Shown here in pieces: positions 4,730 to 8,436 of a stretch of DNA of 21,180 bases; the first letter of the stretch is position 1, and the number at the start of each line of letters is the position of its first letter. A program made the translations under genes and the position numbers. Source of the stretch: a virus. The notes beneath the pieces were generated by a model, which made no database searches, was not told where the DNA came from, and saw only the letters and a list, made by a program, of their open reading frames with translations. The stretch is from positions 1-21,180 of IMG/VR virus record IMGVR_UViG_3300024301_000112; one strand, given 5' to 3'.

Positions 4730-4966
4730 TTAAGATTCTTTCTTATCAGTCACAAAAGAATAGAGCTTGTCGGCCTGTTCTTTGATTTCATCGGGCGTGT
4801 ACATTTTTGGAACGTACTTAGACCATGCATCAAGAGCGGCTTCATTATTTTCTTTGGCAAGATCCATTGCGTGATAGGCCATTTGCATATTGGTTTCGTA
4901 TTGACGATCCAATAATTCTTTAGCCATCTGCAAAACATCATAACGGATTTGATAGGGGTTTGACAT
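4730..4966 (-). CDS. Conserved hypothetical phage protein, helical
   Basis: This is a 78-residue protein. ATG 4966 is preferred over an upstream in-frame ATG at 5026 because AAGGAAAG lies at the right distance and the extra 20 residues look like translated leader. The sequence (MSNPYQIRYDVLQMAKELLD at the start) is almost entirely predicted helix, rich in Gln, Met, Glu and Lys, with no signal peptide, membrane segment or catalytic motif. It resembles small helical proteins I associate with marine T4-like phages, but I cannot give a function. A strong terminator follows its stop. Confidence 0.75.
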   Translation of the reverse strand: MSNPYQIRYDVLQMAKELLDRQYETNMQMAYHAMDLAKENNEAALDAWSKYVPKMYTPDEIKEQADKLYSFVTDKKES

Positions 4967-5043
4967 AATTTTCTTTCCTTTTTCGTGTGTGTAGCGATAC
5001 CATTCTATGTCTATGTCGGTATGCATGTGTTATATAGCAAGGA

Positions 5044-5442
5044 CTAAAAAGTCCAAGCTACTCCTACTTCGATCTCTCCGCGATCTTCTGCGTTGAAGTC
5101 GTAAGTTGTTTCGGCATACGCCATGGTGTTACCATTGATGTCGTATTCTGCGCCGAGTTCTAGAAGCGGGTAGTTCCCATCATCAAGAATATTTACTACG
5201 TTCCAATCATCACCACTCGTGTGGTTGGTTTCGTACATAGTGATTGGCATTTCGCCATATACTGATAGCGGCCCTGCTGCTGATGTCCAGCGCAATTCTG
5301 GTTCCACCGTCAAGTGATTGGTCTCAGCATCCACTTTGTGATATGCTTTGACTTCAGTGTTAAGGGCAAGACCCATTCCTAGATCTGCCGCGGCGGTAGA
5401 TGTTGCTGTTAGTGCTGCTACCGCGAAAAGTACTGCTTTCAT
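5044..5442 (-). CDS. Secreted protein with small outer-membrane-barrel features
   Basis: This is a 132-residue protein with a clear signal peptide: Lys2, a hydrophobic Ala/Val/Leu core, and an AAA-D cleavage site near residue 19. The mature part has many alternating short beta strands (NHLTVEPELRW, LSVYGEMPITMYE, MAYAETTYDF). It ends with a strand closing on Phe (EIEVGVAWTF), which fits the C-terminal beta-signal read by the BAM complex. At about 113 mature residues it could only form a small barrel or a barrel-like periplasmic domain. Phage proteins of this kind could alter the host surface, for example in superinfection exclusion, but that role is inferred. SD-like AAAGGAA lies 8 nt upstream of the ATG. 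A short palindrome (GGACT-TTTT-AGTCC, 5041-5054) overlaps its stop. Confidence 0.8.
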   Translation of the reverse strand: MKAVLFAVAALTATSTAAADLGMGLALNTEVKAYHKVDAETNHLTVEPELRWTSAAGPLSVYGEMPITMYETNHTSGDDWNVVNILDDGNYPLLELGAEYDINGNTMAYAETTYDFNAEDRGEIEVGVAWTF

Positions 5443-5472
5443 TTGTCATGTTCCTTTCTTTGTGACAATGAA

Positions 5473-5494
5473 GAGGGGTTAACCATGACCCCTC
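5473..5494 (-). terminator. Terminator-like hairpin between DUF3563-like gene and barrel-like gene
   Basis: GAGGGGT and ACCCCTC form a perfect 7-bp stem with an 8-nt loop on the minus strand. Only a weak T-rich stretch (TTCATT) follows, so it may pause or stabilise RNA rather than terminate. It lies in the 76-nt gap before the gene at 5442. Confidence 0.45.
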
Positions 5495-5518
5495 ACGCGT
5501 TTATTAAGTAACGACCCT

Positions 5519-5689
5519 TTAGACCCAACCCCTAAGATTAGGATTGGTAGACCATTTCAACTGCTTTTGCCGACGCTCAAGGTCGACTAGGTCAGTTGAT
5601 TTAGATAGGTATTCTTCTATTCTTTCGACTTCAGTCTTCGGTCTTACCGAGTTCCAAATGCCTGACAATGTCTTGAATACATACCTCAT
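5519..5689 (-). CDS. DUF3563-like small protein (56 aa)
   Basis: The gene runs from ATG 5689 to TAA 5519. The start overlaps the TGA of the upstream gene as ATGA, which supports translation by coupling; no good Shine-Dalgarno is visible. The protein is basic-acidic and helical. Its core, VERIEEYLSKSTDLVDLERR, matches my recollection of the bacterial DUF3563 pattern (E-x-Y-L-x-x-S-x-D-x-x-D-L-E-R-R). It ends in NLRGWV. DUF3563 proteins are short, of unknown function, and known from proteobacteria, which hints at the host group. AGA and AGG Arg codons occur, readable by the phage tRNA at 8360-8436. Confidence 0.7.
   Translation of the reverse strand: MRYVFKTLSGIWNSVRPKTEVERIEEYLSKSTDLVDLERRQKQLKWSTNPNLRGWV

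Positions 5690-8359: not shown

Positions 8360-8436
<77 letters not shown>

Follow-up and report, generated by a model that had tools for sequence, protein, structure and literature searches.

What a small gene for an apparently exported protein does in the replication and accessory region of a T4-type phage, and why it lies where it does, is the question raised by positions 5044–5442 of the stretch of viral DNA analysed here (21,180 nucleotides, called the window). An earlier note, made from the letters of the DNA, described an exported protein with an outer-membrane β-signal at this locus; that description is supported by conservation across the family, by fold prediction and by a remote relationship with cyanophage proteins of the DUF680 / Phage_OMP type. 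We propose, at a probability of about 0.8, that this barrel gene of a marine T4-like phage is expressed during infection and yields a small accessory protein of the outer membrane that alters the envelope.

The barrel gene and its product

The gene and its parts are arranged as follows.

5044..5442, minus strand: barrel gene for a 132-residue exported, predicted outer-membrane β-barrel protein (open reading frame call, relatives, fold and profile match)
5452..5456, minus strand: AAGGA, resembling a ribosome-binding site and placed 9 nt ahead of the start codon (seen in the sequence itself)
5389..5442, minus strand: putative signal peptide, residues 1–18 (family alignment and hydrophobicity)
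5047..5388, minus strand: mature part, residues 19–132 (AlphaFold2 models)

The coordinates given earlier are correct, and the strand, which had been left out, is minus: the open reading frame of 132 codons runs from an ATG at 5442–5440 to a stop at 5046–5044, and the plus strand of the same interval contains several stops. Successive scans of viral contigs yielded relatives at 12, then 26, then 33 loci; many of these are near-copies, which means that the loci cannot be counted as independent. Among nine copies almost identical to the window, differences from it fall at a total of nine nucleotide sites, every one of them a third codon position, and the encoded protein is the same. Because relatives occur at 33 viral loci and the differing sites are all third codon positions, 5442–5044 is a real gene under selection. 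The dN/dS ratio is 0.09–0.41 in eight of nine chosen pairs, the ninth being saturated. In a 20-row family alignment, identity to the window protein ranges from 67% down to 40%. Purifying selection and a conserved segment at residues 74–78 speak mildly against a fast arms race.

Outside this family, sequence searches gave little. The window protein and its relative from locus L010 had no tblastn match in the phage collection, and the L041 and L040 proteins had partial matches only, with E of 4 or worse. Pattern-based scans of bacterial genome contigs, which distant host relatives could escape, confirmed no relative. The PDB sequence search returned flavivirus envelope domains at E 0.11 or worse, taken as chance, and searches of PHROGs, NCBIfam and PADLOC gave no convincing family for the barrel protein.

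The second residue of the window protein is a lysine; a hydrophobic run follows, with a Kyte-Doolittle mean peaking at 2.89 over nine residues, and then an alanine-rich end. A lysine or arginine within the first five residues, followed by a hydrophobic run of at least 2.03, is present in all 20 aligned family members. The signal peptide reported earlier thus stands, but its cleavage site is better placed elsewhere than at the proposed AAA-D: Ala18 is invariant in the family alignment and residue 19 is variable, so that cleavage after Ala18 is the better fit and is the site inferred here. The mature part would comprise about 113 residues, with no cysteine and a net charge of −17. The last residue is a phenylalanine, as had been noticed, and it is invariant in 20 of 20 aligned members, where it is preceded by a conserved Gly-Val.

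Predicted fold and probable remote kinship with cyanophage proteins

AlphaFold2 predicts an all-β meander from 16 full-length sequences (pLDDT 73.2) and also from 20 mature sequences (best pLDDT 82.1, pTM 0.70). The five models of the mature part disagree, with pLDDT values of 82.1, 78.7, 64.3, 39.5 and 39.1. The strands of the first model are:

residues 25–36, 41–53, 59–64, 67–73, 79–83, 94–103, 106–114 and 122–130 (AlphaFold2)

The structure prediction thus gave no soluble fold, as the reading of the earlier note implied, while closure of the barrel stays a prediction: the mature model has seven to eight strands, so that a closed barrel is likely and no firmer than that. Strand alternation in the window mature part exceeds that of its shuffles at p 0.006 on one measure and 0.056 on a stricter one; most other members alternate more strongly than the window protein, and those of L027 and L028 reach 0.05 on neither measure. 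For both models, BFVD ranks first a Synechococcus phage DUF680 protein (E 4e-4); most of the entries that come next are likewise DUF680 or 'cyanophage outer membrane protein-like'. Foldseek matches in the PDB, at E 0.044 or worse, are mostly outer-membrane barrels. With VIA-align, the full-length model reaches a highest Z of 9.3; for the mature model none reaches 8, and the best, KdgM (Z 7.8, rmsd 2.1 over 88 residues), has a score that, according to the tool, can mean a common arrangement and no more.

Small eight-stranded outer-membrane barrels of the OmpX / OmpA / Ail-Lom type include Lom of phage lambda. The window protein resembles them in size class, predicted meander and terminal aromatic residue, and in weak PF13505 and Foldseek matches; it differs in its shorter mature chain (113 residues) and in its seven to eight strands with predicted closure. 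PF13505 (OMP_b-brl) scores 22.5 bits against the window protein (E 1.4e-4), below the curated cut-off of 28.7, and matches six of 16 family members at E 0.1 or better. Ail_Lom is absent from the three Pfam families listed for the window protein. Together, these results make a small outer-membrane β-barrel the most likely form of the protein.

The closest kin are the cyanophage proteins known as DUF680, PF24653 Phage_OMP, T4-GC 241 or PhCOG173. Aligned by hhalign to a profile of ten DUF680 proteins, built from 10 of 13 places found in cultured phage records, the family profile reaches a probability of 90.5% and a score of 41.4 at about 18% identity; 100 column shuffles of the mature part average 22.0, with a maximum of 29.2, and the reversed profile scores 16.4. 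PF24653 exceeds its cut-off in ten of 11 cultured phage records tested, the exception being C48C1, which by DNA polymerase (57.5%) is the cultured phage closest to the window. The cut-off of 27 bits is exceeded in none of 12 records, 11 of them virus records with the window's family, whose best member, from L041, scores 19.9 bits over profile positions 5–122 of 122. Conversely, the profile of the window's family (A3) found nothing in 11 phage records. Since the match lies above the shuffle null but below the PF24653 cut-off, the window's family is most likely a remote relative of DUF680 and not a member of the Pfam family. Both share a signal peptide, a length of about 120–130 residues, an all-β predicted fold and a terminal phenylalanine.

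The gene had been called unusual inside a T4-type region, which holds only in part. The DUF680 protein of phage S-SSM4 matches 469 phage records, and its gene occupies the same slot between hsp20 and gp43 as the window barrel gene. In S-SSM4 the order is hsp20, the DUF680 gene, two small open reading frames and DNA polymerase; in the window, as identified with PHROGs, it is hsp20, two small open reading frames, an RNA element described below, the barrel gene, two further small open reading frames and DNA polymerase. The DUF680 gene lies elsewhere in P-SSM2, P-SSM4, S-SCSM1, ACG-2014f and S-BM1, and P-TIM68 and S-T4 have the hsp20–gp43 slot without a barrel gene. A second S-SSM4 gene, carrying the annotation OMP1, lies across hsp20 from its DUF680 gene (L075 444–935, minus strand). 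A passage of one comparison finds DUF680 in 15 of 16 cyanophages (PMC3037559).

The mechanism that we propose runs from export to an altered cell surface. The protein would be exported by Sec via its cleaved signal peptide, and its C-terminal strand, with the final phenylalanine, would let the BAM machinery insert it into the outer membrane of the host. There it is predicted to form a barrel of seven to eight strands, with a conserved, charged inner face alternating with a hydrophobic outer face, and the envelope of the infected cell would be altered.

It is improbable that the protein is instead a periplasmic or virion-associated β protein. A DUF680 protein was detected by two peptides in the virion proteome of S-SZBM1, according to a passage of PMC9146016; one group calls DUF680 non-structural in a passage of PMC6224464. 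Closure of the window barrel is only predicted, and the YadA-type membrane anchors of phage adhesins are also matched over 41 residues of the model, so a barrel of several chains would be possible. Against a place in the periplasm or virion stand the cleavable signal peptide, the terminal phenylalanine and the structural matches to outer-membrane proteins; moreover, a virion protein made in the cytoplasm would need no signal peptide.

For the outer-membrane protein that we favour, the mature chains of the family, at 106–115 residues, are too short for a wide monomeric pore, and plugging or occupying the surface is therefore the most likely single role. We tentatively assign receptor masking or superinfection exclusion, a role that we hold plausible at somewhat less than even odds. 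Nutrient permeability under limitation ranks after it and is rather unlikely: in phosphate shortage the protein, perhaps as an oligomer, would aid uptake through the outer membrane, a role that has been put forward for DUF680. Copies of DUF680 adjoin pstS in three cyanophages, where they lie directly upstream of it:

L074 3258–4238: DUF680 gene of P-SSM2
L075 13213–13581: DUF680 gene of S-SSM4
L081 2188–3116: DUF680 gene of S-SCSM1

Clusters of DUF680 and PstS are both listed as over-represented at BATS in a passage of PMC3686209, and a passage of PMC6224464 suggests that DUF680 acts in phosphate limitation. The same source, in the part that concerns adaptation of S-TIM4 to Synechococcus WH8102, describes DUF680 as inactivated by many mutations, with a cumulative mutation frequency near 100%, a loss that fits an accessory gene. 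Against the nutrient role, pstS was found in one of nine contigs with the window's family, about 20 kb from the gene, several of these contigs being fragments, and the chain is short for a pore. No psbA was found in any of the nine. Envelope stability ranks third and is more doubtful still.

A twin-hairpin RNA element

The earlier note had the gene flanked by a weak hairpin and a palindrome, and both are real.

5473..5518, minus strand: 46-nt twin-hairpin RNA element, right after the stop codon of the upstream open reading frame 5519–5689 (covariation)
5498..5513, minus strand: hairpin P1 of the element, 4 bp with the 8-nt loop ACTTAATA
5473..5494, minus strand: hairpin P2 of the element, 7 bp with the 8-nt loop CATGGTTA; this is the weak hairpin
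5035..5060, minus strand: hairpin overlapping the stop codon of the barrel gene (region 4985–5060, z −4.1, 0 of 200 shuffles)

The palindrome lies at 5028–5039 with arms 89% complementary; in single-sequence folding, the stop-codon hairpin at 5035–5060 is the stronger of the two. A GC-rich hairpin followed by a run of T occurs within 60 nt after the gene in 15 of 18 relatives, judged by eye, and the window lacks it. The gene also has no clear promoter of its own, as had been stated: no sigma-70-like site was found on the minus strand between 5442 and 5519. A T4 late promoter was rejected for the window gene, with no TAAATA within 160 nt upstream; eight of 19 sequences do have one.

A pattern for P2 alone found 49 stretches, and a looser pattern 105, of which 80 are among the matches listed. 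Seven of the 49, near-copies of the window or L041 lineages, were left out of the model search. The model, built from 14 sequences, gave 74 matches in 97 sources, representing 29 distinct sequences; of 86 stem-like matches, only those among the sources of the model search were counted. The 29 sequences, with six to seven P2 pairs, were set apart from seven chance-like ones with three to five.

In the 14-row alignment, all 154 of 154 pair cells are paired and 33 are changed on both sides; across the 29 distinct rows, 99.7% of 319 pair cells are paired and 78 are changed on both sides. The numbers of paired and two-sided cells and the covariation score were reached by none of 500 shuffles on either alignment A6, which was gathered by a pattern fixing most of P2 and no letter of P1, or A7, which was fitted to the model. 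Two weaker measures discriminate less: of 500 shuffles each, 474 on A6 and 31 on A7 attain the observed 'further pair types', and 52 and 35, respectively, the observed 'pairs with a change on both sides'. Given no structure, RNAalifold predicts the same two hairpins. Both 8-nt loops (NCKUAAUA and CAYGGUUA) and the CGT linker between the hairpins are nearly invariant. The alignments thus identify the element as a structured RNA, and its structure rests on covariation, because the single-sequence fold of 5440–5540 is no better than shuffles (z −0.42) and places the P2 bases in other pairs; thermodynamic proof was therefore given up. A coding reading of the element (GTG AGG GGY CAY GGT TAR) was rejected on our own reading of the sequences, since some members have in-frame stops and changes in P1 letters change residues.

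Rfam 15 has no match at the element in the window (4950–5600, E up to 5), where it reported only an unrelated stretch at 5181–5236, nor, at gathering thresholds, in those sources carrying the element that were searched. A blastn search of the element against the phage collection returned only an 18-nt match at E 5. Among 22 whole records, 12 have the element, once each; it is absent from four contigs of the barrel family and six cultured phages.

Termination suggests itself as part of the element's story, with at least five T in the next eight bases in 47 of 74 matches, and conservation of P1 and the loops would call for a partner that binds them. That the element is an ordinary intrinsic terminator, its sequence conserved through the recent spread of one cassette, is possible but doubtful. 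Its frequent position close after a stop codon, sometimes before a convergent gene, fits a terminator as well as the T-rich tail does, yet 27 of the 74 matches lack that tail. Termination would not need P1 either, which is nonetheless kept in 29 of 29 distinct sequences despite changed letters, and the near invariance of both loops and the linker is likewise at odds with a plain terminator. In L134, L155 and L163 the first open reading frame detected after the element, 114 nt further on, has a start like that of a small lipoprotein (MKKIATIAAIAAFTTLAAC).

Two stem-loops make up the put RNA of phage HK022, and the PeSL of T4-type phages are intergenic promoter-stem-loop cassettes repeated within a genome. 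By description only, the element is like these in its two neighbouring hairpins or its place as an intergenic stem-loop in a phage genome. A shuffling site, beside which cassettes such as the barrel gene would be swapped by recombination as with PeSL, seems unlikely. The neighbours of the element do vary between phages, and the barrel gene that directly follows it in the window is absent in L157; however, unlike the repeated PeSL cassettes, the element is a single copy in 12 of the 12 records that have it.

Gene, element and tmRNA as neighbours

A permuted alphaproteobacterial tmRNA lies upstream of the barrel gene, on the same strand, in 17 of the 20 relatives' loci searched with Rfam (eight of nine and nine of 11).

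L022, L024–L032, L037–L042 and L045, same strand as the gene: loci with tmRNA upstream of the barrel gene

The gap between tmRNA and gene is 34–158 nt in 16 loci and about 1.8 kb in L032. ARAGORN sees a tmRNA in only four of the 23 relatives' loci given to it (L028, L030, L039 and L040), which makes Rfam the main basis for this assignment. The window has no tmRNA; only a tRNA-Arg at 8360–8436 was found. The 5' leaders of L022, L024, L031 and L032 have in common a different hairpin, GTGAGCAA...GCTCAC, just before the barrel gene. This neighbourhood distinguishes the window's family from DUF680: the neighbour is mostly tmRNA, not psbA or pstS. A tmRNA beside the gene does not prove an alphaproteobacterial host, because Methylophilales phage Melnitz infects a gammaproteobacterium and yet carries an alphaproteobacterial tmRNA, according to a passage of PMC9004378. 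The relatives' loci and Melnitz, as that passage describes it, are alike in a phage-carried tmRNA matching the alphaproteobacterial model; they differ in that the tmRNA of the relatives recurs beside a small barrel gene, and the window itself is without one.

A homologue of the barrel gene adjoins the element in 17 of 74 matches. It is directly upstream in 15 (five distinct element sequences) and directly downstream in two, the window and L083, which belong to one lineage. The other 57 have no detected family homologue beside the element, so the link between the two is recurrent but not general. Where a barrel or barrel-like gene lies upstream of the element, a tmRNA precedes it in eight of eight loci (L084, L102, L103, L135, L140, L145, L150 and L161); among these, the L103 gene has no detectable homology to the family and the L145 gene weak homology.

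L157 has the same upstream open reading frame and element as the window, and in it the element leads straight into the homologue of the open reading frame that comes next in the window, with no barrel gene between; L160 agrees downstream of the element, and upstream its contig ends. Comparison of L157 with the window therefore places the gain or loss of the barrel gene precisely at the junction of the element and the next open reading frame. That frame (4730–5026, minus strand) probably starts at an ATG near 4966 (MSNPYQIRYDVLQ), because the L157 homologue begins MSQNKNPFEIRAEMLQ. The barrel gene would be a mobile accessory cassette with varying neighbours: often a tmRNA precedes it and either a terminator or the element follows; in the window, the element directly precedes the gene.

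At close to an even chance, though on the lower side of it, the element may stand for a new class of structured RNAs in phages: a regulatory RNA, single-copy and recognised in trans, with conserved 8-nt loops and freely covarying stems, that marks the placement site of accessory genes, above all of small outer-membrane barrels, and takes part in a recurrent module of tmRNA, barrel gene and twin hairpin in marine phages. Should it turn out to be regulatory, this phage RNA would be one not described before, and its covariation signature is clear and its sequence short and easy to test. A natural comparison is at hand in the contigs that have the barrel gene at this site and those that lack it. 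Through the likely kinship with DUF680, envelope proteins of that kind would also be represented by a distinct family in phages where psbA was not detected, and their role could then be studied outside photosynthetic hosts.
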